A stretch of DNA of 64,000 nucleotides. Origin: Sipunculus nudus. Lineage: Eukaryota; Annelida; Sipuncula; Golfingiida; Sipunculidae. Of this stretch, positions 62-59,755 are shown piece after piece. Below the pieces are notes generated by a model, which saw nothing but the letters and a program-made list of their open reading frames with translations, was not told the origin of the DNA and did no database searches. How positions within the stretch are numbered: position 1 is the first letter of the stretch; each line of letters opens with the position of its first letter. The stretch is from positions 8,745,464 through 8,809,463 of the forward strand of contig CM049320.1 in NCBI GenBank assembly GCA_026874595.1. The letters run 5' to 3'. A program made the position numbers and the translations under genes.

Positions 62-241
62 GTAGCAGCAAGTGATGAGGAAGGAGAGGAAGAGGAAAAG
101 AGTGAAGAGGATGAAGAAGATGAAGATAAGGAAAAAGATGATGAGGCTGAGAAGGAGGAGGATGAAAAACCAAAGAAGAAAAAGAAACCCAAGAAGAAGA
201 AGAAGGCAAAGGAAGAGGAAGAAAAAGAGGAAAAAGAAAAG
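62..241 (+). CDS. Exon 1 in window: Glu/Asp/Lys-rich, 60 codons
   Basis: The acceptor is ctgatcag and the donor AAG|gtaatc. The exon begins VAASDEEGEEEE, runs through an acidic half, then a lysine block (KPKKKKKPKKKKK) and ends EEKEKEK-like. It is phase 0 at both ends. An alternative AG five bases later (gtagcag) would break the frame used by the other exons. Confidence 0.8.
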
Positions 242-5902: not shown

Positions 5903-8900
5903 ATCTGTAATTATCAATTGTGATTTGTTAGTTTTTGATTTTGCATTTAAATAATACTACTATTAAAATGTCAGAATTTGTCAGATTATCTGGCTGTATA
6001 GAAATTAAGAAAAAAAATTATTACATTACAATTCAAGCATATAATCCCGCTTATTATTTTTATTTTGCATTTTATTTATTGGGGCGCCCCTTCATTACAA
6101 ATGGCACAGGTCAGGTACTACCTTAGTCTTGCTCAATTCAGATATAGTGACTGATTTGAAGTACATTAGTATCTTCCCTATTCAGGGTAAAATAAACACA
6201 TTTTTTTTTATTTCAGGATGATACACCATCATTTACATTCAAGAAGAGAGAAATAGTAAGTAACACTGTATAACCTTAATTTGACATTTAATTATCTGTG
6301 TTAATTTTAAAGTTAATCAGAGCTAATCTTTCAGCAGCATTTAGCAAAACAATTTTAAAAAGAACCAGCATCCCATCATATATTTAAGATAAATTGTAGC
6401 TGTGCATCGAAATGACATAGTATGCAGTCAATAGGGCATAACATAATAGTCTGTTAATAGTTTGTGTCTGTACACATGATGTACAGTATACTGTGGTTGC
6501 CATTTTATTTGCGAGGGTTTCAAATTTGTGATGTTTGGGAAAATAAAGAAAATTATTATATAAACAAAACCTTTCTGAATAAGAGGCCTCATGGTCAAAT
6601 GTTGAAACTCAAAAGATTGGTATTATAAATAATAATTCATCTTGTATGTTACCATTAATCTACCATACTTATTATAAATAATAAGATCTTTCAAATTATC
6701 TGCTTACAATGAAAAATGATTTCTACTCGCTCAATAATCACTTGGGTATCGACCAGATTTTATATATATGTATGATTTTGCATACATGTTACTTTGTATA
6801 ATTAATTCATAAAATAATTGATCTACTCCACGTAGGTTATTGTGTGGTGATTGATAACAAAACTTGAACCAATGTGAAACAGTGAAAAGGTGAAAATCAC
6901 AAAATGTTAACATCGCGAATATGAAGCCAATCCAAGTATATACATTTAATTTGAAATCAGGTTATAACCAGCTTCTGTGGATCAGGGGTAGAGCACAGGA
7001 CTCAAAGCCTGCAGATTGTGAGTTCGATAGAATCTAAGCTGAGGTAGTTTTTCACGGTCAGCCCCCATACAGGATGAATGTTCTGCAGGCTTTATGGGAA
7101 GGCCTTGTGCCAGTTGGCTGTGTAAATTTCACTCACAAACCAGTGTGTCTTTCGGGGGTTCCATGGTGGTATGACCCAGCAGTGGGGGCGATTACACACT
7201 CAGGGCCTGCAGGTGCAGTAGTCACCAGGCCTGGTTAACTCTAGGATATTAAATGAGAGGAAGTATGTGGTACTGCCCTGTCACGTTGTCCAAAACCGCC
7301 ATGGAATTCTGCAGATGTACATATACATATGTAGTTAAGTTAGCATTAAAAATGGAGGCAATTACCTCCATAAAAAAAATATTTAAAAAAAGTTACATTG
7401 AATGAATTCTTCTTTACATTCCTTGTTGGTTCCTTAGTGTCTACAGATTACTGTTCCTTTCAGGTTGAATCTGATGATGATGACTGGGTAAGTTAACAGC
7501 AATAAAGTTTCTGGAGACATTAAACTCACAATATGGAGAAGTTAATGCTGTAATAGGAGATATTATATTTTACTATGGTATTAAAAATCTTACTTAACAT
7601 TTCTTTAAATTCCTCATAATACATTTACTTTTTAGAGGGCTGTTAAGGGCAAGGCCATAGTCCCCCATACAATTTTACATCTTTTTCAGGTTCTGCCCAC
7701 TTGACATTCCTCGAAATTTAAAAATGTTTATCTCAATGAGAGAGCTTGGCTCTTACTTAAAAAATGAATATATCTTTATAAAAATTGTTGTACAATTAAG
7801 AATATTTACCATAAGTGATCAATGTATATTTATGATAAGTGGTGACAATTTAATTCATCAAATGAATGGTTTTGCTATATAAGCATGTATAAGTTTAGTG
7901 TCTGAGATGTATAAATGTAATCTAGGCTTTGGTAGATGGAGTGTGACTTTTTCAACAACAAAAAAATTTCAGAAATTCAGTGACCTCAGGCTAAGCACAC
8001 CACTTATTTTGTTTTAATTCTTAATTTTGACAGCTTGGAGGTGGAGCAAAAGAAGAGGTGAAGGAAGAAAAGGTTGAAAAGAAGGTAAACTTATTTTATT
8101 GTATCCCCAGACAAAGTATAATTTTGCAGTAAGTAAGATCTCTGACTTATATTTACAACATGTTTAGGTTTGATTAAAGTCACAAATAAAAGGTTAAATG
8201 TACATGCATTTGAAAAGGTCATTCTTTATTCTATATTTTTTTAAAAGTAATTAATAGACCAAAAAATGTTACATCAACATTCAGTCAGTAATAGATAGTT
8301 CTGTGACATGATTGTTAAAACAGACTCTAGCAGTGGACATATTACACCATAGTACCTACTAAATCTACTTTCACAAAGACAAGGGTCACAAGACAGATAT
8401 CTCAGCAAGAGAGAACATGATTTTACGTTGATATTAACAGGCAAAGAGTTGTAAATTATAACAGCTTATATCTACCAGTAACATGAAGTTCCTGGAATCA
8501 ACCAGCGGCGGAGCACCAGAGCACATTCAATGTTTGCCTCGTGATGTCATCCTTACTCTATAATATGTACATTTATGGGCCAAATTAACTGGAGAATATT
8601 GAAAGAATTTCTGTTTGTGTGTGGTGCTGATAAAATAAACGTTTAATTCTTCTGTATATCTTATGTGTCATGTCTATTTTTTCCATAATGGATATCAAAT
8701 TTCTTGATTCATCCATTATAATTAAAGATGTTCACATTGATGACATGTGACATGTTGTTTTGTGCTTTTTTCTGCCTAACCTGATAACATATTATTTAAT
8801 AATTGCCTGCTTTAAATAAAAGCCTGCTTTGTATAATTGCCAGGTTAAAGCAGGGTCCGAAAAAATAAACACCCCAGGCATCTGATCAAGGAAATACAGT

Positions 8901-9613
8901 AGACCCAACTGGGTCACTTGTTCTGAAATGAAGCAAATTTATTTCTCAAGATGTGATGTTTTATTTTGTGAACTGAAATTTGTAAGAATGAAAGTAAATG
9001 TTCCTCTGTAAATTTTAAATTACTTTCTCACTTAGTTAACCTTGTTTGAGTAACCCCAGAATACAAGCAGTCACAGACAATACAGATATTATTTGTTGTA
9101 AAATTATTAAGTATGATGAATTTCTTCAGTGTTTATTGTGTATTGTTAACTCTGTGCATCATCTAATATGTACCTATATTATAGGATGATACTCCGACCT
9201 TCAAATTCAAGAAACCGGCATTTGTAAGTATAGTACCTTTGAATTGCCTTTATGACTACTTGCTATTTTTTATAACATTAGACACATCAATTCTCATTTT
9301 CTTAGGAATAGACATATTTATAATTCTTGAATGCATTCTAATTCAATTCACTATAACTTATAAACCTGTGCTCTTTTGGAAGTATTTCTTCAATTTTTTT
9401 ATTGCTTTTATTGAATATTTCTCACAACATACTGGCTTCAGGCCCAGTTGAACATAATGATTTTATAGAATATGTATGTTTAATATTTAGAGTATGGTGT
9501 TTTTGATTGTGGTTTGGTGATAGTTTATTTGTTTCTAATGCTTAAAACGTTATAGGAAGCAGTAAAAGTACTGTATTGATAAATTTACTACACTAGCATA
9601 GATCATATAAATG

Positions 9614-9648
<35 letters not shown>

Positions 9649-12600
9649 ATGCTTTGTATATGGTAATGTATGTATAAATACACATATATATATCATCATC
9701 ATCATTATCTTCATCAATGCAGTTGCCTCTTCAGCATTGTTACATAAATATCAATCCTTGTCTTTATCATCATATTATCCACACCATTAATTATTATTAC
9801 CATTAATATAATGACATTACCACCAATGGTCTCATGCCAACCTCTGTAGTTGTATCGTCATCAATGCAGTAACATCATATCATTATTTCAGTTTTATCTT
9901 CATCATCGATAAAAACAATGTCATTGATGTGGTTACATCATCATTACCTCAGCCATATCATCCTCAACAATTTGGTAACATCATCATGTCAGCATCATTG
10001 TTAATATCATCAGTATATTTATACAGTCATAATGCCCACATTAAAGTTACATCATCAATAGTATAGTTATATCAGCATTAGCATCTTCATGGTATATCTA
10101 TTAATTATTTCTATATTTATTTTGTAGGCTGATTCAGATGATGATGACTGGGTGAGTAGTCAGCTGGTTTTAAGAGAACTTTTCTTTTCCTTTACCAGAT
10201 TGGCAACATTTATTAGACTTGATCACACGTGTTAAAAATAATCCAATCAAAAGTCCATCCTATTGCAAAATATCAGAATTGCAATATATGATATATGATG
10301 TTTAATTCACATTATCATTGAAGCCAAAACAATTAAACGTGAAGGTTACATGTTCTGGTCTAACATACATTATAAAAATATTTTAATAATGGAATACACA
10401 TATAGACATGTGTGTATATTTATATATATATTATGTTTTTTAAATCTAGATTGACCTTCTTTGCTAAACATTATATTTCATTATAAGAATAAAAAATGTG
10501 ACATTTCAGTCTTAATATTTAATTCAGTTATTTAATAATTTTTTTTAGCTTGGAGGTGGAGATGAGAAAGAAGAAGAAAAGAAAGAAGAAAAGGAAGAAA
10601 AGAAGGAAGAGAAGAAGGTTGTGATATGACATCATTTTCTCTAATCATAACTTAAATTTTCCTACTTGATTTAATAAATTGCAATATTGTTTTGTTTTGT
10701 TTAATTTTCTACATGGGGATATGGATGGCAGTGTAGCCTGTTGCCTACTTGTAAATTGTTATATGTCATAAAGATACAGAGATGAATCAACAAGTCAAGG
10801 ATAATTAAAGCTGCCCATTCACCTACCTTTTGAAAAAAAATTATGTGATTTCTGGCATGCTCTGTGTATATAATAATGATCTAAGGGTATTCTGGTTATG
10901 AAAAGTTTCATAATGCCTACACAGTGGATGTATGTACTTGATTATCAACATGTTTGTAAACACAGCAATGTTAAAAAACAGGGAAAAACATGTCACCTAT
11001 AAGGTGGTAGGTTGCATATATGTGGGTCTGTATAGAAAGGTCACTTGTTCCAAATTGCCATTTGCAAAGCTGTTGCTTATCTGACTTGCTGCCAGATGCT
11101 CTTGTTGAATTTGTTTTGATTATTTTGTCGGGCTCCCACAAGTAATAAACACAATGATATAAACAAGCAGCCTGTGTGCGGTGATAGCCACATTTTCTGG
11201 TCTATTTTTATTAAAGCCCCAAGAGATGACCTTTAGTTTATAAAGTGAGATAGGTTACCACCTTGGAGTATAATTGATCAATGTGATTTTTTTTAGGATG
11301 ATACTCCAACATTCAAATTCAAGAAACCTTATGTAAGTGTATTCTTTGATATCTCTGTTTCTATCAGATCATTTTGTCAGTTTAATTTGAAATACTAGTG
11401 TAATAGTATTTGATGGTGTTTAAAATGACATTAAGAATGATTATTAAATAATTTTCATGAGAACATTCATGATACAAAATGACAATTTGACTTGCACAAC
11501 ATGTGATACAATTTAAAGAAAGTATTTCAATTTATTATACATTTGCTTGGTGGCTGCAGTGTACAGGTGTATATGTTTTACTCTTAGTTATCCAGTGTTT
11601 ATGTTAATCAGCAATCCTACAATGAATATACTAAATAGATTGTGATGAAATTTTGTCAAGGATTAGAATTTCTCCCACACCCAAAGACTAAACCTTTTAC
11701 TTTAGAGGTAATCTTGGTCACCACCATAAGATGTTTATTCATAGGCTTCAGACCTTTCGATTCTGACTTATGGCTTTTTCTTTTGTCTCTGTCAAGGCCT
11801 AGAGCTTAGAGTTAGCTATAGTCTTTCCCATTGAAATTTGGCAATATTTTCATAAACTTGCAGATTAATTACAGATGGTATGCTGCAATGAAGGGATGGG
11901 GTATTGGTCCAATCAAATATAAGTAATTTGAAATCATATCTTGCAAAATATTAAAGAAATACAATTAAATCAATATATGAGTAAACAGTCTATTTTTTGC
12001 AATACCTCAACCCCATTTATGAAGGTAAAGGTCACTGGTCACATGCTGATGCAAAAAACTCCACTTATAAACACCTTATTTCTAATAATTGGTCATTAGT
12101 ATTCTAAAAAGTAGTCTAAAGTAGTCTAAAACCCATGACAGACCCCATGTCACTTGGCCACAAGTTTCAGAAGAACCAGAGAGTTGCAAAATATAAATGT
12201 TGGTTTTGTAATGAAGTTTATATCTCATATAAGGCCTTTGGTCCCTCATCAGTTTTAAGGTCAGACGTTTGATAAATTTTTACTTTCAGAGAATAATTGC
12301 AAAATTTCAGTGGGCACCCTGCTGTAGAACAGACTATAGTGAATGCAGTTCATATACTGTGACAAATATTTCCTGTGTAGCTGTTTAGTTTAATAAGGAT
12401 GCATTCTATAATTGATGTGATAAACTTACAGCATGTTTAAAGGTCTGCTAAGGTTTTATTGGCTCCCATAATCTGTTTATCCATTTTTATTTGTTATTTT
12501 ATGTAATGAATGGCAGACCATTTTCCAGTATATTGAGATTTTGAATTTTTGTTTTCTCTGTAATTCTACAGGAAGAATCTGATGATGATGACTGGGTGAG

Positions 12601-54600: not shown

Positions 54601-57600
54601 AAAGTTTCATTTGTGATGTATTCTGGGCTTATTTCCATCAAGTCCTACAAAATCAGTTGCAGAAAGTTTCATATGTGATGTATTCTGGGTTTATTTCCAT
54701 TAAGACCTACAAAATCAGTTGCAAAAAGTTTCATATATGATGTATTCTGGGCTTATTTCCATCAAGTCCTACAAAATGAGTTTGCAAAAAGTTTCATATA
54801 TAATGTATTCTGGGCTTATTTCCATCAAGTCCTACAAAATCAGTTGCAAAAAGTTTCATATATGATGTATTCTGGGCTTATTTCCATCAAGTCCTTCAAA
54901 ATCAGTTGCAAAAAGGTTTCATATATGAAGTATTCTTGGCTTATTTCCATCAAGTCCTACAAAATCAGTTGCAAAAAGTTTCATATATGATGTATTATGG
55001 GTTTATTTCCATCAAGACCTACAAAATCAGTTGCAAAAAGGTTTCATATATGATGATTTCTGGGCTTATTTCCATCAAGACCTACAAAATCAGTTGCAAA
55101 AAGTTTCATATATGATGTATTCTGGGCTTATTTCCATCAAGTCCTACAAAATCAGTTGCAAAAAGCTTACTATATGATGTATTCTGGGCTTATTTCCATC
55201 AAGTTCTACAAAATCAGTTGCAAAAAGTTTCATATATGATGTATTCTGGGCTTAATTCCATCAAGTCCTACAAAATCAGTTGCAAAAAGTTTCATATATG
55301 ATGTATTCTGGGCTTATTTCCATGAAGACCTACAAAATCAGTTGCAAAAAGTTTCATATATGATGTATTCTGGGCTCATTTCCATCAAGACCTACAAAAT
55401 CAGTTGCAAAAAGTTTCATTTATAATGTATTCTGGGCTTATTTCCATCAAGTCCTACAAAATCAGTTGCAAAAAGTTTCATATATGATGTATTCTGGATT
55501 TATTTCCATCAAGTCCTACAAAATCAGTTGCAAAAAGTTTCATATATGATGTATTCTGGGCTTATTTCCATTAAGACCTACAAAATCAGTTGCAAAAAGT
55601 TTCATATATGATGTATTCTGGGCTTATTTCCATCAAGTCCTACAAAATCAGTTTCAAAAAGTTTCATATATGATGTATTCTGGGCTTATTTCCATCAAGT
55701 CCTACGAAATCAGTTGCAAAAATTTTCATATATAATGTATTCTGGGCTGATTTCCAATAAGTCCTACAAAATCAGTTGCAAAAATTGTCATACATGATGT
55801 ATTCTGGGCTGATTTCCAATAAGTCCTACCAAATCAGTTGCAAAAAGTTTCATATATGATTTATTCTGGGCTGATTTCCATTAAGTCCTACAAATTCAAT
55901 TGCTAAAAGTTTCATATATAATGTTTTCCAGGCTAATTTCCATTAAGTGCTTCAAAAATCAGTGTATTTAATACAAAAGATATAATGAATGACTATCAAC
56001 TTTTATTCACTATCTGTCAGCTGAGAGCTGAACTTCTGCAATGTTGGCTTAGACAGAAGTGAAATTATATATTTCTTTAAATTTTTTAATGAGTCCTTTT
56101 TATATCATAAAAATTGGTCATAAATTAAAATTATCATATTGTATTAGTATTTTTAACACCAGGATAAGGTATGATACAACATTTATTTATGTTTAAAAAT
56201 AATTTTTTCAAATTTAGTATCATTTAGTAATATTAATTATTATGAAATGAAGAACATAAAGCCAGAGTTGACAGGAATTGTTGTTGTGCAGAATTAAAAT
56301 ATGTGTGTCATAGCTAGCAATACTTCTGTTCATGTATTCAAATATCTGTATTGCTGGTAGTGTATTTTTGCTTCATGTGTTAACAGATGTAGCTTGATTT
56401 TGCTATTACAGCTTCATATGTTTATATATAGTTGTAGTGGACTGCAATTTGTCGTGTATTATTTAAGTAATTCTGTGGTAGTGGCGGTGGTAGTTGTTTT
56501 ATAATTTTCTACTTCATGTATGTTGCTGTGTGTGGCAGTAGTGGTGATATAATTTTGTACTATATATATATTGCTGTGTGTGGTGATGATTTTTGCTTGT
56601 GCTTGACTGTAGAAGAAGAAGGAACCCACTCCCCCACCAACCTTCAGAAGGTTCAGGAAACCCTGGGTAAACCTCTCAACAACTCATACGTAACATGTCT
56701 CACCAAATGTATCATGTGATATATAATGCCATGCTCCTATATGAAATTTAAAATTATCATGTATTTTTTTACTTTATAACATACTTAAAATGCCTGTGTT
56801 GTCATATATTATATGAAACAGTCAGAAATGATCATTTCCAAGTAGTACACTAATCTTTTCTAACCTTAACTGACCTTTTAAGTATATTTCCATAAAGAAT
56901 AAACATAACACAACAGAACATATTTACTAGGTGTGTAATGTATCATGTACATCGATGTAAGGCTATTTATACAAATATGCATTAAATCACGTGTCTCAGT
57001 ATGTTTTAAAGGGAGAGAGTATATTTCATGTTCTCCACCGAAATGTACTGGAAAAAAATATAATTTCAAGATTACTCTTCTTTCATATATATCTATTTAG
57101 TCACTAAGTGACACTGGGTGATCTTCTCATGAAGTTTTTTTTTTAATCAGCTGTCACATTTCTTTATTAAGTTACTTCTCAATTCGATGCATGTCACTTA
57201 CCCATTATAAATATTCCAATTCCACCAGCTTGTTTAATCAAACTCAGCTTTATATACATGTTATCTCAATTCTGTTCAGGTACAGTGAACAGACTTTTCA
57301 GAAATGCTAACTTTGCAAGGAATTAAAAAAATTGATGTCACAATAAAAAATATAAAAAAAACCCAAAATGCAAAAGAATCTACCTCAGTTTTTTTCAATT
57401 TAAATAAAAATTTTCTTTTAAAAAATTAAGGCATTTTCTTGTTTCAATTAATTTTATATATTCAATCATATTTGTCACAGGATTTTTAACTTTCAATTAA
57501 TTTTTAATTATTTTATTTTTATTTGATATTCTTGTTTTCAGATTCTTTGTTTGAGTAAAAAAAACATTGTATTTCATATTTTCAGTTTTTAGTACATGAT

Positions 57601-59755
57601 TTTCCTTAACTTGGTGTTAATTATATACTCTAGGTATTATAGATGTAATCATTTCTGGCTAATGATAATATTTTAAGATATGTCATAACAATATTTTGCT
57701 ATAAAGAAAAATATAGATTATTATTATTAAATGTACATTTAAGATATGTTCATGAATTATGACATCTTAAAACAAGAACAAAAATCCAATTTAGTAGTTT
57801 TTCACTGGTCTCTTATCATGTTTGAACCTTTTTACATTTATTTTCACATTTATTTTTTCTTTTTAATATTATATCAGGAGGACAGTGATGAAGATGAACC
57901 ACCCAAGGTAAATTTGAATTACCTGTTTCTCACACTTTACCTGACCTAGTCTGCTTAGCCTTATCAATATACCTTGCAATTTAATATATACAAGTAAGGC
58001 ATGCAGTGTCACCATAAATATATGTGAGCCTGTGCACATAACAAGATAGACAATATTTACACATATATTTTGCTATTTAAGGTAGATAAAGGGAGGATGT
58101 ATCTTCCCAATTGTGAAGTACCACATACATGATTTCTTTTGTAATTGTAAAGAAATGTAGCAGTTTGTGTCTGATATAACTAAAAGTAGGAAATATATTA
58201 ACTGGCCTTGTGGCTGTGTTGTCTTACCTGCATCCTCATTCAATAGATGATTTCACAAATAGGTCAATGACTTAAAATGCTCATGTCCTAAATGGGCTTC
58301 ATTGTCAAGGGATACTTTGGCACATCAGGAATGACAGACTTATTTAATTTTGTAAAAGGGGCAGAGAAATCTCAACCTAATTTTTTTCAGGAGATTTTAA
58401 GTTGAGATCTAAAATTAAAAATAAATTCAACTGAAGTGCATTAATTCACACAACAAGCTTCCAACATATCTAATTTCCAGCATAACATTTTGGTTTTCTT
58501 TGCCTAACATAACTCTCTCTTTAACTTTTGTTTATATTTGTTTTATTTATTCAGAAGGCTCCTGAGAAGAAAAAGGTAGAGTCAGAGTCAGACAAGTCAG
58601 AGTCTGAGGACGAGCCTCCACCAAAGGTATTAACAAACATACACACCATAGTAATACTTACACTCCATTCTCCATTATTTTTACTCTTTTAAAGGGGCCC
58701 AATCACCTATAAAGCATGTTGAGTTAACACGAAAAATAGCTCCTTCCTCTAAAATAAATCTGTACCAAAAATAAATCTATACTTAAAGTAAATCTGTCCA
58801 TCATGTGTCATAATGTGTGGAAAATGCCCTTATCTTTATGCAGGGGATGTGCAATGTATGTTTCTGACCTTTGGATTCTAAGTAAATACACATATACTTA
58901 GAATGCATATCACATCTTTATTCAGTGTGTGATAAAAAATGGTGAATTTGCTGCTGATTTCACTCTTTATTCATTCTTTATTTCAAAGAAACTTTTTTCT
59001 CTTTTTTAACGAGAGGACTTACTCGTTTTTTCAGTCATTTACCTTTGACAGGCCTATAGGGGATTTCATTAAGGATTCCCTCGATCTTGACCTTCCTGTT
59101 TCAGTTTGGTTGATTGATAAAAGTCGGGTTGATCATTGTTTTATTTTACTTACAGCCTGCTGCAGCACCAATGACCTTCAGAAAGTTCAAGAAAGCTTGG
59201 GTAAGTACAGGGCTGGCCTTCAGCATAATACAGCATTTTGTTGATGGAGGACCAGTGGAGGGACCTGCATTCTTTTATTGTTCTGCTGTTTTATGTTAAG
59301 ACTTTGAGATATTGTATACAAGTTTTGAAAAGTCACATCAATATTTATTTCATCTTTGTAATGTCCTCTGATCATTAAATGGATTATAACATATTTTATA
59401 CTATGTTTTATAATTTTGGTGTTTTTTTTTTTTAGAAATCAAATGGTTATCTTTAACTTGTTGTTTTTACAGGTAAATAAAGAAAAGAAAATGGGAGAGG
59501 CATATGTTGTATTTTTTCACATGATTTTAAACCTAGTAGCTAAAAGTCAAACTAACTCAGTGATATTGCATACAAGGTTATTTAATTTTGTAGTCAATTT
59601 GTGACTTTGTATGAAACTATGGGTTGAGAGGAGACAAGGAGTGCCATCTGTCTTCATTTAGCAGAACTAGGAGTACCTACTCTTTAAAAAGAAATCAAAT
59701 TATGACTTAGTGATTATTTTTACAGGAGAGTGATGAAGAACCAGACTGGGGTTAA
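62..59755 (+). CDS. Modular Lys/Glu-rich repeat protein, multi-exon gene, 5' end outside window
   Basis: This spliced gene has 43 proposed coding exons, all phase 0, giving about 843 codons; the start codon lies upstream of the window. From 6217 on, exons cycle through an aromatic/basic type (TPTFKFKKP), a short acidic type ending in DW, and a KE-rich linker opening LGGG or LAGG. Support is the same exon type recurring with acceptor AG and donors GTAAGT or GTGAGT, with frame kept throughout. No folded domain, signal peptide or membrane segment is visible in the translated exons. Composition predicts a highly charged, disordered chain. Triadin, titin PEVK and nucleolar KE-rich proteins share the style, but I see no diagnostic motif for any of them. 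Automated pipelines may give it vague names such as glutamic acid-rich protein. Gene structure is confident; function is unknown. Confidence 0.85.
480..695 (+). CDS. Putative exon 2: Ser/Thr/Pro-rich, 72 codons
   Basis: Acceptor cctccaccag and donor GCTGAG|gtaaaa bound a 216-nt stop-free stretch in phase 0, starting VSGFTSPPRQSNN and ending TTSLAE. The composition (Ser, Thr, Pro, Leu) differs sharply from the charged exons around it. It fits as a cassette exon because phase and length agree. An upstream AG (ccaacag) would open a frame with an early stop. There is no sequence kinship to other exons, so confidence is moderate. Confidence 0.45.
881..1042. mobile_element. MITE-like inverted-repeat element (CAGTGGAACCCC family)
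   Basis: The left end CAGGAGAACCCCAC and right end GTGGGGTTCCACTG are imperfect inverted repeats of 14 bp enclosing 134 bp. A TA dinucleotide abuts the left end. The interior contains GGGACCAAGAAAAGTGGTCAT, shared in either orientation with 5632-5806 and 47653-47784. The TIR resembles the CAGT-type ends of pogo/Tigger-like Tc1-mariner elements. No coding capacity. Confidence 0.5.
1146..1274 (+). CDS. Exon 3: Glu/Lys-rich, 43 codons
   Basis: Acceptor gctgctgcag and donor GAG|gtgaga. It begins ESEKEEVDEEITKDEAKEVK and ends in EKEKEDEE. It is phase 0 and stop-free. The intron before it holds a MITE-like element. Confidence 0.85.
1669..2022 (+). repeat. tRNA-related SINE-like repeat, copy 1
   Basis: The copy starts CTTCTGTGGATCAGGGGT, an A-box-like segment, followed by GAGTTGGAATCTCAGCC, a B-box-like segment. 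A body follows that contains CTCAGGGCCTGCAG and CACCAGGCCTGGTTAA, and the end is CTAGCATTAAAA. A second copy lies at 6966-7353 in the same orientation. The 3' end abuts the 27-bp satellite. Confidence 0.6.
2094..3851. repeat. 27-bp minisatellite array, about 65 copies, intronic
   Basis: Two main unit versions exist: CTGAGTCCAGGCCACTC plus AATGCAAAGT, or plus AAGTCCAAGT. The block about 2278-2579 is nearly homogeneous; the rest is mixed, with a larger segment repeated (the variant with GCTATGCCAC occurs near 2809 and again near 3559). Because 27 is a multiple of three and the unit lacks stops in several frames, long open frames arise on both strands. They read SLSPGHS-type or SRPLNAKSE-type on + and LDSDFALSG-type on the minus strand. 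I treat them as by-products. Confidence 0.9.
4184..4264 (+). CDS. Exon 4: KE-rich, 27 codons
   Basis: Acceptor tatccccacag and donor AAG|gtagaa. It begins KKEDKEEEKEEKKEK, has a run of six lysines, and ends VVK. Phase 0. Confidence 0.82.
4265..4902 (+). other. Intron 4 with short GTCT tract
   Basis: Near 4391-4412 there is a (GTCT)n-like tract followed by a conserved-looking tail, CCACAAGGTTTTTG, which may be a fragment of an interspersed repeat. Nothing else is recognised. Confidence 0.5.
4903..4941 (+). CDS. Exon 5: Lys-rich, 13 codons
   Basis: Acceptor tctgtttcag and donor GAA|gtgagt. It encodes KKKAKEDKTKKDE. Phase 0, 39 nt. Confidence 0.8.
5010..5285. repeat. Cluster of GTTAAC-centred palindromic motifs
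   Basis: The motif CAGTTAACTG or AGTTAACTGAACAG recurs in both orientations at about 5072, 5146, 5188 and 5264, with degenerate forms between (TTAACTGAACTG, GAACTGAGTTAA). It is a cryptic repeat inside the intron between exons 5 and 6. Confidence 0.55.
5472..5510 (+). CDS. Exon 6: KE linker, 13 codons
   Basis: Acceptor tatattcag and donor AAG|gtgaga. It encodes VDGEKEKKKEEKK. It acts as the linker before the first aromatic exon. Phase 0. Confidence 0.82.
5632..5806. mobile_element. MITE-like element, same family as 881-1042
   Basis: The left end TAGTGGAATCCTGC and right end GTTGGGTTCCACTG are imperfect inverted repeats. The interior carries ACCACTTTTCTTGGTCCC, the reverse complement of the interior signature of the 881-1042 copy. 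Non-coding. Confidence 0.5.
5877..5901. repeat. (TA)n microsatellite
   Basis: An uninterrupted TA dinucleotide run of about 24 bp within the intron before exon 7. Confidence 0.8.
6217..6255 (+). CDS. Exon 7: aromatic/basic module 1, 13 codons
   Basis: Acceptor atttcag and donor ATA|gtaagt. It encodes DDTPSFTFKKREI, the founding-type aromatic/basic exon: acidic pair, Thr-Pro, two spaced phenylalanines, then basic residues. First complete three-exon cycle. Confidence 0.88.
6966..7353 (+). repeat. tRNA-related SINE-like repeat, copy 2
   Basis: Same order of segments as copy 1 at 1669: GCTTCTGTGGATCAGGGGT, a B-box-like GAGTTCGATAGAATC, CTCAGGGCCTGCAGGTGC, and the terminal TTAGCATTAAAAA. It is somewhat longer in the middle. 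Both copies are in the gene's sense orientation. Confidence 0.6.
7464..7487 (+). CDS. Exon 8: 24-nt acidic microexon 1
   Basis: Acceptor cctttcag and donor TGG|gtaagt. It encodes VESDDDDW. First of the acidic microexons. Confidence 0.88.
7488..8033 (+). other. Intron 8, nothing recognised
   Basis: AT-rich unique-looking sequence; no repeat or exon-like segment seen. Confidence 0.5.
8034..8084 (+). CDS. Exon 9: LGGG-KE linker 1, 17 codons
   Basis: Acceptor tttgacag and donor AAG|gtaaac. It encodes LGGGAKEEVKEEKVEKK. Gly-rich start plus alternating K/E. Confidence 0.88.
8085..9184 (+). other. Intron 9
   Basis: Around 8790-8880 there is a degenerate segment (AATTGCCTGC, ATAATTGCCAG, AATAAACACCCC) resembling the segments at 62310-62410 and 62680-62695, probably an old interspersed repeat. 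The rest is unremarkable. Confidence 0.35.
9185..9223 (+). CDS. Exon 10: aromatic/basic module 2
   Basis: Acceptor tattatag and donor TTT|gtaagt. It encodes DDTPTFKFKKPAF. Confidence 0.9.
9616..9646. repeat. (TA)n microsatellite
   Basis: A TA run of about 30 bp in the intron between exons 10 and 11. Confidence 0.8.
9690..10090. repeat. Degenerate ATC/CAT-rich tract
   Basis: Dense ATCATC, TCATCAT and CATCATTA repeats, decaying with interruptions, span about 400 bp directly before exon 11. This looks like an old trinucleotide microsatellite. Confidence 0.6.
10128..10151 (+). CDS. Exon 11: acidic microexon 2
   Basis: Acceptor ttttgtag and donor TGG|gtgagt. It encodes ADSDDDDW, 24 nt. Confidence 0.88.
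10152..10548 (+). other. Intron 11, nothing recognised
   Basis: AT-rich with a short TATATA stretch near 10420; no other structure seen. Confidence 0.5.
10549..10617 (+). CDS. Exon 12: LGGG-KE linker 2, 23 codons
   Basis: Acceptor ttttttag. The donor AAG|gttgtg is weaker than the family norm. It starts LGGGDEKEEEKKEEK and continues as K/E to EEKK. Confidence 0.85.
10795..11275 (+). repeat. Interspersed repeat A, copy 1 (about 0.45 kb)
   Basis: Extended similarity to 32244-33130 is visible in shared blocks such as AATGATCTAAGGGTA, GGTGGTAGGTTGCATATA, CTTATCTGACTTGCTGCC and GCAGCCTGTGTGC. The left edge, AAAGCTGCCCATTCACCT, resembles the AAAGGGGCCCAATCACCT motif at 58693. No coding capacity. 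Confidence 0.65.
11297..11332 (+). CDS. Exon 13: aromatic/basic module 3, 12 codons
   Basis: Acceptor tttttttag and donor TAT|gtaagt. It encodes DDTPTFKFKKPY, one codon shorter than its siblings. Confidence 0.9.
11333..12571 (+). other. Intron 13, nothing recognised
   Basis: About 1.2 kb of AT-rich sequence without recognisable repeats or exon-like open stretches. Confidence 0.45.
12572..12595 (+). CDS. Exon 14: acidic microexon 3
   Basis: Acceptor attctacag and donor TGG|gtgagt. It encodes EESDDDDW. Confidence 0.9.
13285..13450. mobile_element. Decayed MITE-like fragment
   Basis: Segments such as TATGACCACCTC, ATAATGACCAGTTC and TTTTTCACGGTCCCATTG echo the interior of the CAGTGGAACCCC family, but ends are poorly kept. 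Lies in intron 14. Confidence 0.3.
13488..13547 (+). CDS. Exon 15: LGGG-KE linker 3, 20 codons
   Basis: Acceptor ttcttacag and donor AAG|gtaagt. It encodes LGGGDEEKKEEKKEEKKEEK, with an EEKK tetrapeptide repeat. Confidence 0.9.
14040..14215. repeat. Pyrimidine-rich CTCTGTCT tract, copy 1
   Basis: CTCTCTGTC and CTGTCTCTGT repeats follow a GACATCTCT segment. The equivalent tract stands at 21130-21360 in the paralogous intron, so it predates that duplication. Confidence 0.55.
14250..14936. repeat. Cryptic GGGAAAATGAGAATTCC palindromic repeat, left part
   Basis: The motif TTCCCAGGGAAAATGAG and its reverse recur between 14250 and 14460 and again at 14890-14930. The family resumes at 17575-17690 after the inserted HINE-like element, so one repetitive tract was split. 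The interval 14470-14880 itself shows no clear structure. Confidence 0.45.
14937..17565 (-). mobile_element. Pearl/Helentron-like (HINE) non-autonomous element 1
   Basis: The + strand left end is TTTTT followed by AGCTCAGCAGACT, an imperfect hairpin closing with CATCTGAGCT. A GTCCGTC tetranucleotide tract follows (14985-15025), then two core units of about 680 bp (starting near 15029 and 15709). The right end is AACAGCTGAGCGCCGTGACC and TTGTTTTT. Read on the minus strand this is core repeats, ACGG-type microsatellite, terminal hairpin, then A-run. That is the layout known for pearl elements and Helentron-associated elements. It sits in intron 15 and accounts for most of its 4.4 kb, compared with 0.7 kb for the paralogous intron 18. 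No coding capacity. Confidence 0.6.
17962..18000 (+). CDS. Exon 16: aromatic/basic module 4
   Basis: Acceptor tttcccccccag and donor TAT|gtaagt. It encodes DDTPSFTFKSRTY; KSR replaces KKP, shared with exon 19. Confidence 0.9.
18001..19924 (+). other. Intron 16, paralogous to intron 19
   Basis: Blocks match intron 19 (21597-23575): GTAAGTAGTGT after the donor, ATGCATGCAT near 19070 and 22717, and ATGGTTGATAATRCA near 19140 and 22782. A (GAAT)n tract lies at 18956-18982. Confidence 0.55.
19925..19948 (+). CDS. Exon 17: acidic microexon 4
   Basis: Acceptor catacag and donor TGG|gtgagt. It encodes DSDEEDDW. Confidence 0.9.
19949..20786 (+). other. Intron 17, paralogous to intron 14
   Basis: The segment near 20458, GTCCTCAATGGATTCTTC, with CATGTAGGATATT matches 13118-13155 in intron 14. 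No other feature seen. Confidence 0.5.
20787..20849 (+). CDS. Exon 18: LAGG-KE linker 4, 21 codons
   Basis: Acceptor tcctaacag and donor AAG|gtaagt. It starts LAGGDKDKKEEKKEEKKEEK and ends in a further K. The LAGG form replaces LGGG here. Confidence 0.9.
21130..21365. repeat. Pyrimidine-rich TCTCTTTCTC tract, copy 2
   Basis: Counterpart of 14040-14215, including the shared lead GACATCTCTCT and CTGTCTCTCT elements. Lies in intron 18. Confidence 0.55.
21558..21596 (+). CDS. Exon 19: aromatic/basic module 5
   Basis: Acceptor tttgcccccag and donor TAC|gtaagt. It encodes DDTPAFKFKSRGY. The acceptor tract and 100 bp upstream resemble those of exon 16. Confidence 0.9.
21597..23575 (+). other. Intron 19, paralogous to intron 16
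   Basis: Carries the blocks listed for intron 16, plus an A-rich AAAGAAAG tract near 22440-22490. No exon-like segment found. Confidence 0.5.
23576..23599 (+). CDS. Exon 20: acidic microexon 5
   Basis: Acceptor attatatag and donor TGG|gtgagt. It encodes DSDEDDDW. Confidence 0.9.
24083..24142 (+). CDS. Exon 21: LAG-KE linker 5, 20 codons
   Basis: Acceptor actttcag and donor AAG|gtaaag. It encodes LAGDKEEEKKEEPKEEKIEK; a proline interrupts the K/E pattern. Confidence 0.87.
24170..24430. repeat. Diverged tandem repeat with GGTAAAATATGTAGAAAG
   Basis: Three to four degenerate units share GGTAAAATATGTAGAAAG, AACAAATCCT and nearby A-rich spacers. Lies in intron 21. Confidence 0.4.
24934..24975 (+). 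CDS. Exon 22: aromatic/basic module 6, 14 codons
   Basis: Acceptor gtattccag and donor TAT|gtgagt. It encodes KDDTPSFTFKKRDY; one extra leading Lys. Confidence 0.9.
24976..25711 (+). other. Intron 22, nothing recognised
   Basis: AT-rich, no repeat or exon-like segment seen. Confidence 0.45.
25712..25735 (+). CDS. Exon 23: acidic microexon 6
   Basis: Acceptor taatattag and donor TGG|gtgagt. It encodes DSEEEDDW. Confidence 0.88.
26018..26201. mobile_element. MITE with 13-bp perfect TIRs CAGTGAAACCTCA
   Basis: CAGTGAAACCTCA at 26018-26030 is matched by TGAGGTTTCACTG at 26189-26201, giving a 184-bp element. A TA follows the right end. The interior has TGTGTCGAACTCGC and its loose reverse CTTCGACTTTGACACA near the other end. 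The ends are of the pogo/Tigger kind within Tc1-mariner; this copy has no coding capacity. Confidence 0.7.
26204..27694 (+). other. Rest of intron 23, nothing recognised
   Basis: AT-rich, no exon of the module types, no clear tandem repeat. Confidence 0.4.
27695..27805 (+). CDS. Exon 24: LAG-Ser/acidic linker 6, 37 codons
   Basis: Acceptor taaatag and donor AAG|gtaaga. It begins LAGDGDEKKDEKES, contains a run of five serines then DEESKEEDEEEED, and ends AKSSKK. The Ser-Asp/Glu pattern fits acidophilic (CK2-like) kinase sites, an inference only. Confidence 0.87.
27806..28176 (+). other. Intron 24, lacks the expected aromatic and acidic exons
   Basis: Two linker exons (24 and 25) are adjacent with no aromatic/acidic pair between them in this 371-bp intron. 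I found no relic of either. Confidence 0.5.
28177..28251 (+). CDS. Exon 25: LGGG-KE linker 7, 25 codons
   Basis: Acceptor catcatag and donor GAG|gtagct. It starts LGGGSDVEEKKEEKKEVK and ends EESSSE. Closely related to exon 28, including the flanking intron start. Confidence 0.87.
28252..29528 (+). other. Intron 25, paralogous to intron 28
   Basis: ATGAATATGCATGAA shortly after the donor is shared with 32041-32055, and CATAGAAACC near 29487 with 33300-33309. No other structure seen. Confidence 0.5.
29529..29567 (+). CDS. Exon 26: aromatic/basic module 7 (Arg variant)
   Basis: Acceptor tgttccag and donor AGG|gtaaga. It encodes RPTFGFRNFRRPR. The acidic DDTP lead is lost and Lys is replaced by Arg, a bridge to the later FRRFRKPW type. 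Confidence 0.87.
29568..30381 (+). other. Intron 26, nothing recognised
   Basis: AT-rich, ends in a TTATTATTAT tract before exon 27. Confidence 0.45.
30382..30405 (+). CDS. Exon 27: acidic microexon 7
   Basis: Acceptor tcctcag and donor TGG|gtgagt. It encodes ESDEDDDW. Confidence 0.88.
31339..31460 (-). mobile_element. Hairpin-headed interspersed repeat fragment
   Basis: TTATGTCTCCCC (31339-31350) and GGGGAGACATAA (31358-31369) form a perfect 12-bp stem with a 7-nt loop. It is followed by a degenerate GTCTGTGTC tract and AACACGATAACTTTTAAATG. A terminal hairpin followed by a GTCY tract is the same arrangement as the heads at 14937 and 38036, with a different sequence. The far end is not identified. 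Confidence 0.4.
31500..31700. repeat. 54-bp tandem repeat, about 3.5 units
   Basis: TTTCCACAAAGTTCAAATGAG-type segments begin at about 31524, 31578 and 31632, each preceded by TCTTGTGAGAAG or similar. Because 54 is a multiple of three, the minus strand stays open for 102 codons; I regard that frame as incidental. Confidence 0.6.
31924..32007 (+). CDS. Exon 28: LGGG-KE linker 8, 28 codons
   Basis: Acceptor tttgttgtag and donor GAA|gtaata. It starts LGGGDDKEEKKEDKEEEK and ends KKKEDSSSE. Paralogue of exon 25. Confidence 0.87.
32244..33130 (+). repeat. Interspersed repeat A, copy 2, split by a younger insertion
   Basis: Matches copy 1 (10795-11275) from CCCTTTCACCAACC, across the insertion at 32271-32674, to GGTTACC and beyond near 33080. 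The right end TAGATGATTGGCCCCCTTTA is the inverse of the left-end type, suggesting terminal inverted repeats. Confidence 0.65.
32271..32674. mobile_element. 404-bp GC-rich insertion with 12-bp target duplication
   Basis: CTTATGAAAAAG occurs at 32259-32270 and 32675-32686, flanking a segment clearly richer in GC than its surroundings. Copy 1 of repeat A runs straight through the equivalent point, so this is an insertion. The duplication length suits LINE-type retroposition, but I see no poly-A tail. On the + strand one frame is open from 32413 past the right edge; its second half reads MPFECRTPSCERHYFE then CTCGFGH, with cysteines and histidines spaced like a small metal-binding motif. The source is unknown. 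Confidence 0.6.
33343..33381 (+). pseudogene. Decayed aromatic/basic exon (relic of module 8)
   Basis: The last ten codons read MTLRNFRRPW followed by gtaaaa. This aligns with exon 26 (RNFRRPR|gtaaga) and the upstream intron also aligns (CATAGAAACC). The acceptor TTCCAG of exon 26 is replaced by GCAACA, so no AG stands at the phase-0 position. The nearest AG choices would shift the frame. It sits exactly between a linker exon (28) and an acidic exon (29), where the cycle needs an aromatic exon. Confidence 0.65.
33708..33755 (+). CDS. Exon 29: acidic exon, 16 codons
   Basis: Acceptor ttatccag and donor GTG|gtagga. It encodes EDSEDDEDEEESDGEV. It has the acidic role of the microexons but is longer and has no DW. 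Confidence 0.83.
34008..34526. mobile_element. 519-bp TIR element with 5-bp AACAG duplication
   Basis: The left end CAAGGTTGCAAGG and the right end CCTGGCAACCCTG are inverted repeats with two mismatches. AACAG stands at 34003-34007 and 34527-34531. GTCAGGGAAAAGTCAGGGAA lies inside the left end and GTCAGGGAATAGTCAGGGAA inside the right end. A G-run (about 34098-34115) is internal. A 95-codon minus-strand open frame (34159-34446) is not recognisable as a transposase. Confidence 0.6.
34532..35768 (+). other. Rest of intron 29
   Basis: A segment ending TCAGCATTAAAAAAGG at 34690-34705 loosely recalls the SINE tails. A short (CA)n tract is at 35236-35250. From 35666 the sequence belongs to the duplicated block. 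Confidence 0.4.
35769..35831 (+). CDS. Exon 30: KE/Ser linker, 21 codons (copy A)
   Basis: Acceptor ttttttattcag. Donor AAG|gtcaga is unusual at +3. It starts ATSKKAEKKEESEEDESEEE and ends K. The donor overlaps AGGTCAGAGGTCA. Confidence 0.8.
36253..36306 (+). CDS. Exon 31: KE linker, 18 codons (copy A)
   Basis: Acceptor atactacag and donor AAG|gtaaat. It encodes PKKKEEPKKEEEKKEEKK. Confidence 0.85.
36307..36834 (+). other. Intron 31, nothing recognised
   Basis: AT-rich, duplicated almost unchanged at 45986-46513. Confidence 0.5.
36835..36873 (+). CDS. Exon 32: aromatic/basic module, PTLRKFKKPW type (copy A)
   Basis: Acceptor tttcctag and donor TGG|gtgagt. It encodes DAVPTLRKFKKPW. Thr-Pro order is changed and Trp ends the exon. 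Confidence 0.88.
36874..37795 (+). other. Intron 32, nothing recognised
   Basis: Unique-looking, duplicated at 46553-47477. Confidence 0.5.
37796..37825 (+). CDS. Exon 33: acidic exon, 10 codons (copy A)
   Basis: Acceptor ccattacag and donor TTG|gtaaga. It encodes EDSDEEEADL. Confidence 0.87.
39107..39190 (-). mobile_element. Second HINE head (hairpin plus GTCC tract)
   Basis: TTTTTAGCTCAGCTGACTG, hairpin closure CATCTGAGCTATAGG and the tract TTGTCCGTCGTCCGTCC occur inside the composite. Nearly identical to the head at 40691. Confidence 0.7.
39232..40434. mobile_element. 1203-bp TIR element with TA duplication, nested
   Basis: Perfect 25-bp inverted repeats: the left begins CCGTAAAATCTGTGAAATTT (39232) and the right ends AAATTTCACAGATTTTACGG (40434). 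TA flanks both sides (39230-39231, 40435-40436). Removing the element and one TA restores TTCTTACTTGACATCC, the uninterrupted form seen at 40827. TA duplication places it with Tc1/mariner-like elements. Inside, two related segments of about 130 bp start near 39598 and 39940 (TTACGCATGGAAATCCCC and TTACACACGGAAATCCCC). No transposase frame is visible. Confidence 0.82.
40691..40775 (-). mobile_element. Third HINE head (hairpin plus GTCC tract)
   Basis: AGCTCAGCTGACTG, CATCTGAGCTATAGG, then GTCCGTCGTCCGTCGTGCCG. The main run of core units (about 40780-45400) follows. Confidence 0.7.
45447..45509 (+). CDS. Exon 34: KE/Ser linker, 21 codons (copy B)
   Basis: Identical coding sequence to exon 30. 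The acceptor is now TTGTTTTATTCAG, whose upstream part comes from the inserted element. Donor AAG|gtcaga. Confidence 0.75.
45932..45985 (+). CDS. Exon 35: KE linker, 18 codons (copy B)
   Basis: Encodes PKKKEEPKKVEEKKEEKK. One amino acid differs from copy A (Glu to Val at position 10), plus one silent change (CCC to CCA). Confidence 0.8.
46514..46552 (+). CDS. Exon 36: aromatic/basic module (copy B)
   Basis: Encodes DAVPTLRKFKKPW, same as copy A with one silent change (CCC to CCT). Donor TGG|gtgagt. Confidence 0.83.
47478..47507 (+). CDS. Exon 37: acidic exon, 10 codons (copy B)
   Basis: Encodes EDSDEEEADL, identical to copy A. Donor TTG|gtaaga. Confidence 0.82.
47653..47784. mobile_element. 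MITE-like fragment, CAGTGGAACCCC family
   Basis: Contains GGGACCAAAAAAGTGGTCAT, the interior signature of the family, and a right edge TGCACTGTA. The left end is poorly preserved. Confidence 0.35.
47930..48013 (-). repeat. Repeat B, copy 1 (inverted relative to 58692)
   Basis: Ends TAGGTGATTGAGCCCCTTTA. Its reverse complement aligns over about 80 bp with 58692-58772, including ACAGATTTATTT and AGCTATTTTT segments. Confidence 0.55.
48135..48317 (+). CDS. Exon 38: KE/Ser linker, 61 codons
   Basis: Acceptor ctaataaag and donor GAG|gtatga. It starts GSSDKKEEEKKEEKKKVV, continues with an acidic serine stretch (SESKSDESSTDESEDDE), then KPAPKKKVV, a run of four serines with SSEDESEGE, and ends TDKSE. 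Largest linker in the gene; rich in acidophilic kinase-type serines. Confidence 0.87.
48318..51128 (+). other. First part of intron 38 (2.8 kb)
   Basis: Mostly unremarkable AT-rich sequence. Around 49745-49800 the segment CACCTGATGAAGGAAC with GTGGAAACCC recalls retroelement 3' ends. 49810-50110 is somewhat GC-richer and has no recognisable feature. Confidence 0.4.
51129..55963. repeat. 62-bp minisatellite array, about 78 copies
   Basis: The unit contains TTTCATATATGATGTATTCT, GGGCTTATTTCCATCAAGTC and CTACAAAATCAGTTGCAAAA. Consecutive units are 62 bp apart over 4.8 kb. Higher-order blocks are visible: a four-unit block starting near 51169 recurs near 51415, and a longer block around 53440-53690 recurs about 1.06 kb later. 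Short open frames arise with ISIKSYKISCKK-type repeats; not coding. Confidence 0.93.
55964..56612 (+). other. End of intron 38, nothing recognised
   Basis: AT-rich then GTGGTAGTGG-rich from about 56470 to 56590. No exon-like segment before exon 39. Confidence 0.45.
56613..56666 (+). CDS. Exon 39: aromatic/basic module, TFRRFRKPW type, 18 codons
   Basis: Acceptor ttgactgtag and donor TGG|gtaaac. It encodes KKKEPTPPPTFRRFRKPW; a short K/E plus proline lead is fused to the aromatic motif. Confidence 0.87.
56667..57877 (+). other. Intron 39, nothing recognised
   Basis: 1.2 kb, very AT-rich from about 57300 (AATTAATTTTTAATT runs). Confidence 0.45.
57878..57907 (+). CDS. Exon 40: acidic exon, 10 codons
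   Basis: Acceptor ttatatcag and donor AAG|gtaaat. It encodes EDSDEDEPPK. Confidence 0.86.
57908..58554 (+). other. Intron 40, nothing recognised
   Basis: AT-rich, without repeat structure that I can see. Confidence 0.45.
58555..58626 (+). CDS. Exon 41: K/E/S linker, 24 codons
   Basis: Acceptor ttattcag and donor AAG|gtatta. It starts KAPEKKKVESESDKSESE and ends DEPPPK, echoing the DEPPPK-like end of exon 40. Confidence 0.86.
58692..58815 (+). repeat. Repeat B, copy 2
   Basis: Begins TTTAAAGGGGCCCAATCACC. Similar, inverted, to 47930-48013. The first 20 bases also resemble the ends of repeat A at 10795 and 33130. Confidence 0.55.
59156..59200 (+). CDS. Exon 42: last aromatic/basic module, 15 codons
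   Basis: Acceptor tacttacag and donor TGG|gtaagt. It encodes PAAAPMTFRKFKKAW. Confidence 0.88.
59201..59725 (+). other. Intron 42, nothing firm
   Basis: A TTTTTACAG|GTAAATAAAG sequence at 59465-59482 could look like an acceptor, but the frame after it has no module character. Confidence 0.4.
59726..59755 (+). CDS. Terminal exon 43: acidic exon and stop
   Basis: Acceptor atttttacag. It encodes ESDEEPDWG followed by TAA at 59753-59755. The acidic-DW signature of the microexons therefore closes the protein. Confidence 0.9.
   Translation, partial: ESDEEPDWG

Follow-up and report, generated by a model that had tools for sequence, protein, structure and literature searches.

The gene described here is assigned to the SH3BGR family through the thioredoxin-like domain of its head, a membership strongly supported by sequence comparison, and most of its tail is encoded by three types of small exon that recur in a repeated order. 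We estimate at about one in two the probability that the product is an actin binder of the pointed-end type whose tail is disordered, multivalent and adjustable by splicing. All coordinates refer to the window, i.e. the whole stretch of 64,000 nt that was analysed (C15:8745464-8809463, + strand); values below zero extend into the 60 kb upstream of it.

The family of the gene is read from the head, encoded by exons 1-3. Exon 2 alone matches the Pfam profile PF04908 (SH3BGR) with 55.5 bits, while exons 1-5 joined reach 100.8 bits (E 5.2e-29, cut-off 21; residues 1-97, all within exons 1-3, on profile positions 1-98 of 99). This rise of the score upon joining supports the joins between exons 1, 2 and 3. 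Exons 4-5, as part of the same query, resembled TFIIF_alpha and other profiles through their composition, weakly and under the cut-offs, and the only NCBIfam match to the head, bacterial glutaredoxin 3 at 18.7 bits, is far under its cut-off of 90. Among PDB sequences the best match to exons 1-3 is SH3BGRL2 (2ct6, E 1.6e-20), closely followed by chain Z, the SH3BGRL-2 position at the pointed end, of the spectrin-actin complex 8iah (E 1.9e-20). The head contains no cysteine, hence no catalytic CXXC. Exon 2 carries the PXXP/PPXXF motif of the family as NPIPPQVFNG, the human form being given as PLPPQIF in PMC12827327. The feature of the tailed SH3BGR, a Glu-rich C-terminal extension, is likewise present, as the modelled tail. 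The head is thus an ordinary one for the SH3BGR family, and the idea of an unknown family was rejected once it had been found upstream of the window.

By family, the head probably binds actin. PMC12827327 (2026) describes human SH3BGRL proteins as weak promoters of actin nucleation that block pointed-end elongation, and places SH3BGRL-2 at the pointed end in the 8IAH structure; muscle SH3BGR, set apart by its Glu-rich C-terminal extension, falls outside the analysis presented there. Actin binding by the present head is not secured, because only 5/13 of the named SH3BGRL contact positions (8-17, 39, 40, 46) are identical in it, by reading of the PDB alignment. Work by Jang (2015) reportedly has Sh3bgr, Enah and sarcomeres as its subject. 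SH3BGR itself is described at the sarcomere, co-localised with alpha-actinin, in PMC8541172.

The predicted gene model comprises 47 exons over about 69 kb, with 2,778 coding bases including the stop and a product of 925 aa, divided into a head of 115 aa and a tail of 810 aa. The gene reaches about 9.1 kb 5' of the window, its coding start lying outside; the start context of exon 1 (ACAACCATGG) is one that we take to be favourable. All exon lengths (47/47) are multiples of three, in phase 0/0. Acceptors are AG in 46/46 cases and donors GT in 45/46, the remaining one being GC, and the introns measure between 371 and 8,295 bp, with a median of 838. Exons were sought by a scan for phase-0 exons with flanking AG and GT, which is biased toward charged peptides; for the upstream exons the tail exons served to train a splice-site model, and this picked up the exon at -3641..-3456. 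Two acidic exons, at -1592..-1548 and -775..-704, link the head to the exons within the window. Some splice sites are weak, namely the acceptors at 20787 and 27695 and the donors after 10617, 35831 and 45509, which counts against the preferred reading. The exon at 6217, numbered 7 in the preliminary description, is exon 11 of the present model (Table), whereas the stop codon placed at 59755 was correct: the terminal exon, ESDEEPDWG-stop, ends exactly there.

Table. Exons of the modelled gene, in window coordinates; A, aromatic/basic; B, acidic; C, KE linker
Feature	Position	Strand	Reading and remarks
Exon 1	-9139..-9095	+	MALRVFISRNPGSNE; start context ACAACCATGG
Exon 2	-3641..-3456	+	reads VKKQQDHIVWTLESKGIQFDEID...NPIPPQVFNGDNYIG
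Exon 3	-2267..-2154	+	DYDGFFDAVESEALYTFLQI...; GC donor AAG|GCAAGT
Exon 4	-1592..-1548	+	acidic
Exon 5	-775..-704	+	acidic
Exon 6	62..241	+	pre-modular acidic/KE tail exon
Exon 7	1146..1274	+	KE tail exon
Exon 8	4184..4264	+	KE tail exon
Exon 9	4903..4941	+	KE tail exon
Exon 10	5472..5510	+	KE tail exon
A exon (exon 11 of model)	6217..6255	+	DDTPSFTFKKREI
B exon	7464..7487	+	VESDDDDW, 24 nt
C exon	8034..8084	+	LGGG-KE
A exon	9185..9223	+	DDTPTFKFKKPAF
B exon	10128..10151	+	ADSDDDDW
C exon	10549..10617	+	LGGG-KE; donor position uncertain
A exon	11297..11332	+	DDTPTFKFKKPY
B exon	12572..12595	+	EESDDDDW
C exon	13488..13547	+	LGGG-KE
A exon	17962..18000	+	DDTPSFTFKSRTY
B exon	19925..19948	+	DSDEEDDW
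C exon	20787..20849	+	LAGG-KE; acceptor score weak
A exon	21558..21596	+	DDTPAFKFKSRGY
B exon	23576..23599	+	DSDEDDDW
C exon	24083..24142	+	LAGD-KE
A exon	24934..24975	+	KDDTPSFTFKKRDY
B exon	25712..25735	+	DSEEEDDW
C exon	27695..27805	+	LAGDGDEKK with Ser/Glu run; weak acceptor
C exon	28177..28251	+	LGGG-KE; second consecutive linker (order exception)
A exon	29529..29567	+	RPTFGFRNFRRPR
B exon	30382..30405	+	ESDEDDDW
C exon	31924..32007	+	LGGG-KE
B-like acidic exon	33708..33755	+	no W, no A before; donor after 33752 or 33755
C exon	35769..35831	+	ATSKKAEKK...; weak donor gtcaga
C exon	36253..36306	+	PKKKEEPKK...
A exon	36835..36873	+	DAVPTLRKFKKPW
B exon	37796..37825	+	EDSDEEEADL, no W
C exon	45447..45509	+	recent copy of 35769; weak donor gtcaga
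C exon	45932..45985	+	recent copy of 36253
A exon	46514..46552	+	recent copy of 36835
B exon	47478..47507	+	recent copy of 37796
C exon	48135..48317	+	Ser/Asp/Glu/Lys linker
A exon	56613..56666	+	KKKEPTPPPTFRRFRKPW
B exon	57878..57907	+	EDSDEDEPPK, no W
C exon	58555..58626	+	KAPEKKK...
A exon	59156..59200	+	PAAAPMTFRKFKKAW
Terminal B exon	59726..59755	+	ESDEEPDWG + stop

Thirty-seven small exons lie on the + strand between 6217 and the stop codon: 11 of type A (aromatic/basic), 12 of type B (acidic) and 14 of type C (KE linker). The series opens with six ABC units in succession; a lone C comes next, and ABC, BCC, ABCC, ABC, ABC and AB complete it. Triplets with all three types number 10, alongside a single B-C and a final A-B. 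Of the adjacent exon pairs 32/36 keep to the cycle A>B>C>A, while the highest value in 200,000 label shuffles was 25. The preliminary description had proposed three exon types in a repeated order, and this is borne out; it had also announced a fixed order with about 12 repeats, of which the cycle stands while four pairs depart from it and two of the units are partial. The exceptions are doubled linkers at 27695/28177, 35769/36253 and 45447/45932, the missing A before 33708, and the last unit, which has no C. An A exon was sought before 33708, and A or B exons between 27805 and 28177, and none was found at either place.

A-like and B-like patterns, chosen post hoc from exons already seen, were counted at acceptor sites. 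On the + strand of the window the scan gave 12 A-like and 14 B-like acceptors, belonging to 11 distinct exons of each kind; the terminal B exon, which has no donor, could not be counted. The minus strand gave 4 A-like sites and no B-like ones, and the reversed window had none of either kind. The 60 kb upstream contained 2 B-like sites, both on the + strand, and a single A-like site, on the minus strand. Neither pattern occurred on either strand of a 33 kb stretch of C6 (0 and 0). In 40 dinucleotide shuffles the A-like sites averaged 0.20 (maximum 2) and the B-like sites 0 (maximum 0). The 4 minus-strand A-like sites exceed the shuffle maximum, so that the A pattern, taken singly, is less strict than the shuffles would indicate. 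It is the B pattern and the order that carry the weight of evidence. The scan describes the series rather than testing it, since types and patterns come from this very sequence and the exon search was biased toward charged peptides.

The tail consists of 27.4% E, 24.7% K and 13.3% D (D+E 40.7%), with 4.9% P and 2.7% V; C, H and Q are absent. It is 67% charged, with a net charge of -0.14 per residue, and from this composition it is probably disordered. The opposite charges that had been ascribed to the two small exon types are confirmed, with net values per residue of +0.17 for A exons and -0.68 for B exons; that of all 21 tail linkers is -0.12. One C-type exon reads LGGGDEKEEEKK... Within the modular region all aromatics (F, W, Y; 38/38) are located in A and B exons, which make up 261/615 residues, and none in C; the chance value of 1.4e-15 for this confinement is post hoc, the exon types being partly defined by the same residues, and serves as a description rather than a test. 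The B motif ends in tryptophan in 8/12 copies, with one G after the W in the last copy. The conservation of aromatics claimed earlier thus stands for their location, but 4/12 B exons are without W, which counts against the preferred reading. The A exons at 36835, 46514 and 56613, which adjoin three W-less B exons, and the last A exon, at 59156, end in W. The sequence S-x-x-[DE], which we take to be the CK2 consensus, is present in 12/12 B exons.

Comparison of the copies separates the two small types at the codon level. Among A copies 1-6 (6/11; 15 pairs), compared over the first ten codons (copy 6 without its additional first codon), pS is 0.64 and pN 0.12 (pN/pS 0.18). For the eight-residue B copies (7/12; 21 pairs), pS is 0.25 and pN 0.22 (pN/pS 0.91); B exons are without a purifying signal at the codon level because D and E interchange, and this too counts against the preferred reading. 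Identity between the same copies reaches 0.71 for A (6/11) and 0.77 for B (7/12), versus 0.29-0.31 in the flanking introns. The introns of some units show similarity between units over up to a few hundred bases, and the segments 35756-37967 and 45434-47653 are 98.4% identical over 2,223 aligned bp. These two observations indicate that the tail grows by duplication of units, and the gene is a clear case of a charged tail lengthened by duplicating whole exon triplets.

In the 1.43 Gb of genome searched (153 contigs), PF04908 was found at 3 loci, with 6 candidates scored: the modular gene, C6:54455941 and C3:77193190. The C3 paralogue has an in-frame stop within exon 3 (3.2 kb covered) and exon 3 of the C6 paralogue ends in a stop; over about 30 kb downstream of exon 2 of the latter, no A-, B- or KE-like exon passed the scan. 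Both paralogues appear tail-less. Strict DNA patterns matched 3 times for B and 5 times for A genome-wide, always in the modular gene, and 0 times in a backward control; as these patterns catch only 3/12 B and 5/11 A exons of that gene, diverged copies may exist elsewhere.

The preliminary description knew of no family with this exon pattern. The gene does have one, SH3BGR, through its head, but the tail modules have none in Pfam or PDB, and no known family with the same modules was matched in these two sets of sequences. The single Pfam match to the modular tail is SHIPPO-rpt, at 12.3 bits versus a cut-off of 20. Exons 4-7 had no Pfam match, the Pfam scans covering exons 1-7 and the modular tail. 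Among PDB sequences, a query of modules 1 to 6 that stopped where the sixth linker begins found a single weak match, to a KE-rich part of one ribosomal protein (E 0.059); the tail from 29529 on gave none there, nor did the first modules in NCBIfam. In NOLC1/Treacle-like nucleolar proteins acidic-Ser tracts alternate with basic ones, and a conserved domain stands at the C-terminus; no such domain was matched here, the protein ending in ESDEEPDWG, and this candidate was set aside. Literature searches, mollusc searches included, found no description of an A-B-C module in what they covered, most subscription papers being outside it. For the libraries searched, the A/B mini-exon repeat of the tail looks like an undescribed elaboration.

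From these elements we infer a tentative function for the tail. The tail retains the Glu-rich character that gave the family its name, and it has been enlarged by repeated duplication of a three-exon unit made of a basic/aromatic motif (A), an acidic motif (B) and an aromatic-free KE spacer (C). The head would dock on actin. The tail, strongly charged and presumably intrinsically disordered, would act as a multivalent tether: its A/B pairs would be short sites binding one another or partners linked to actin, and the C exons would serve as spacers. With all exon lengths divisible by three, splicing could alter how many sites there are and how far the tail extends while keeping the frame. It is a long shot, although a specific one, that the protein is a pointed-end binder whose splice-tunable tail presents up to 8 acidic-W docking motifs alternating with basic-aromatic motifs, and that at pointed ends it recruits several copies of an acidic-W-reading partner, for example the Arp2/3 complex, or forms condensates with neighbouring molecules. 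A tail of countable, exon-encoded motifs offers a natural handle on the role of the acidic tail, as the count, the arrangement and the aromatic residues of the motifs can be changed exon by exon.

The main rival to this reading is a tail that works by bulk charge only, as an entropic brush or in ion or mineral binding, the mini-exons being passengers of duplication with no binding role. We regard it as possible though rather unlikely. The charge content of the tail, the nearly identical duplication, which shows an array growing by copying, and the lack of codon-level purifying signal in B exons all agree with it, and an SH3BGR-like protein appears with 2 matched peptides in the nacre layer of a mussel shell (PMC6641155). 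The best match given in that row of the shell-protein table is a Mizuhopecten protein named isoform X5, a name which suggests that relatives are annotated automatically with several isoforms. Bulk charge alone does not account for A-exon amino acids that are kept while their silent sites differ, nor for the restriction of aromatics to A and B exons. More improbable is that the B exons are acidic-W motifs of the Arp2/3-binding type, in a pointed-end binder that also gathers the Arp2/3 complex. A tryptophan follows the acidic run in the majority of B exons, the C-terminus included; cortactin binds Arp3 via a DDW motif in an acidic stretch, as stated in PMC10613254, and SH3BGRL proteins are actin regulators (PMC12827327). 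But a motif this short may arise in any acidic protein, the W is followed in 7/8 copies by L-G-G or L-A-G and not by cortactin-like acidic residues, and no WH2 match was obtained in the modular tail (Pfam, E up to 1, at which weak matches can be missed).

The structure of the gene bears on two further explanations. A short SH3BGR gene could end near exon 3, a separate KE-rich gene lying downstream, and reading through the exon 3 donor indeed leads to a stop codon 12 residues on. We consider this very unlikely: exon 3 is stop-free up to its phase-0 GC-AG donor, the next acidic exon, with strand and phase unchanged, follows after 561 bp, so that the tail continues in frame, and the tailed family member has a Glu-rich extension after the domain, according to PMC12827327. 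The many small symmetric exons and the alternating charge could also recall an elastic spring like the PEVK region of titin, assembled from many small in-frame exons. The PEVK region has a composition dominated by P, E, V and K and belongs to an Ig/FnIII protein. The low P and V contents of the present tail, its lack of any Ig or FnIII match in the modular part (Pfam) and the SH3BGR head make this the least probable of the explanations considered.

The preferred reading, an actin binder with a multivalent tail, places the protein near several known systems. The alternation of putatively sticky motifs with bland spacers is reminiscent of the sticker-and-spacer pyrenoid linker PYCO1, a diatom protein, likened here by description. 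The acidic (A) motifs of Arp2/3 regulators, such as the cortactin DDW, share with the B exons an acidic run and a tryptophan, here in a protein whose head is related to actin binders; in contrast to these regulators, the tail gave no WH2 match and would carry 8 copies along its length. In cortactin acidic residues come after the W, as described in PMC10613254, whereas none stands right after the W here; no DDW motif appears in the passages of PMC6057921 on Abp1. SH3BGRL, SH3BGRL2 and SH3BGRL3, for which the name TPECs has been proposed, have the same head domain without CXXC, and the C6 and C3 paralogues resemble these short members; the modular protein differs from them by its acidic tail, which they lack according to PMC12827327. 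Vertebrate SH3BGR, as described in the same paper, has a PF04908 thioredoxin-like head followed by a Glu-rich C-terminal extension, as here. Compared with the SH3BGR tail as described, the modelled extension of 810 aa is distinguished by its A-B-C mini-exons and their aromatic motifs.

The donor of exon 3, the last exon of the SH3BGR head, is the sole non-GT donor of the gene model (1/46), and the intron that it opens is of the GC-AG type.

Repeated DNA is present in several introns. The 27-bp minisatellite lying between exons 7 and 8 leaves several frames open, on both strands. Two intronic stretches of ~380 bp each share 76% identity and are perhaps copies of one interspersed repeat. Two satellites are found in later introns, one with ~338-bp units in the intron that separates both copies of the 98.4% identical duplicated segment, the other with ~62-bp units in the 8.3 kb intron preceding the exon at 56613. 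Mobile-element sequences were detected upstream of the window, and the open stretches adjoining the reverse transcriptase match are in differing frames.

Coordinates of the features, in window numbering (negative values run into the upstream DNA) or on L001 and L002, two sequences of DNA upstream of the window
Feature	Coordinates	Position	Match
GC-AG intron, donor	-2154	upstream of window, after exon 3	
Minisatellite, 27-bp unit	2031-3850	intron between exons 1146-1274 and 4184-4264	
Similar stretch, first	10827-11199	intronic	
Similar stretch, second	32675-33054	intronic	
Satellite, ~338-bp unit	38080-45310	intronic	
Satellite, ~62-bp unit	50987-55200	intronic	
Retroelement reverse transcriptase	L001:2608-3996	~57 kb upstream of window	RVT_1, 48.5 bits
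ISXO2-like transposase fragment	L002:3953-4222	~46 kb upstream of window	DDE_Tnp_IS1595, 55 bits
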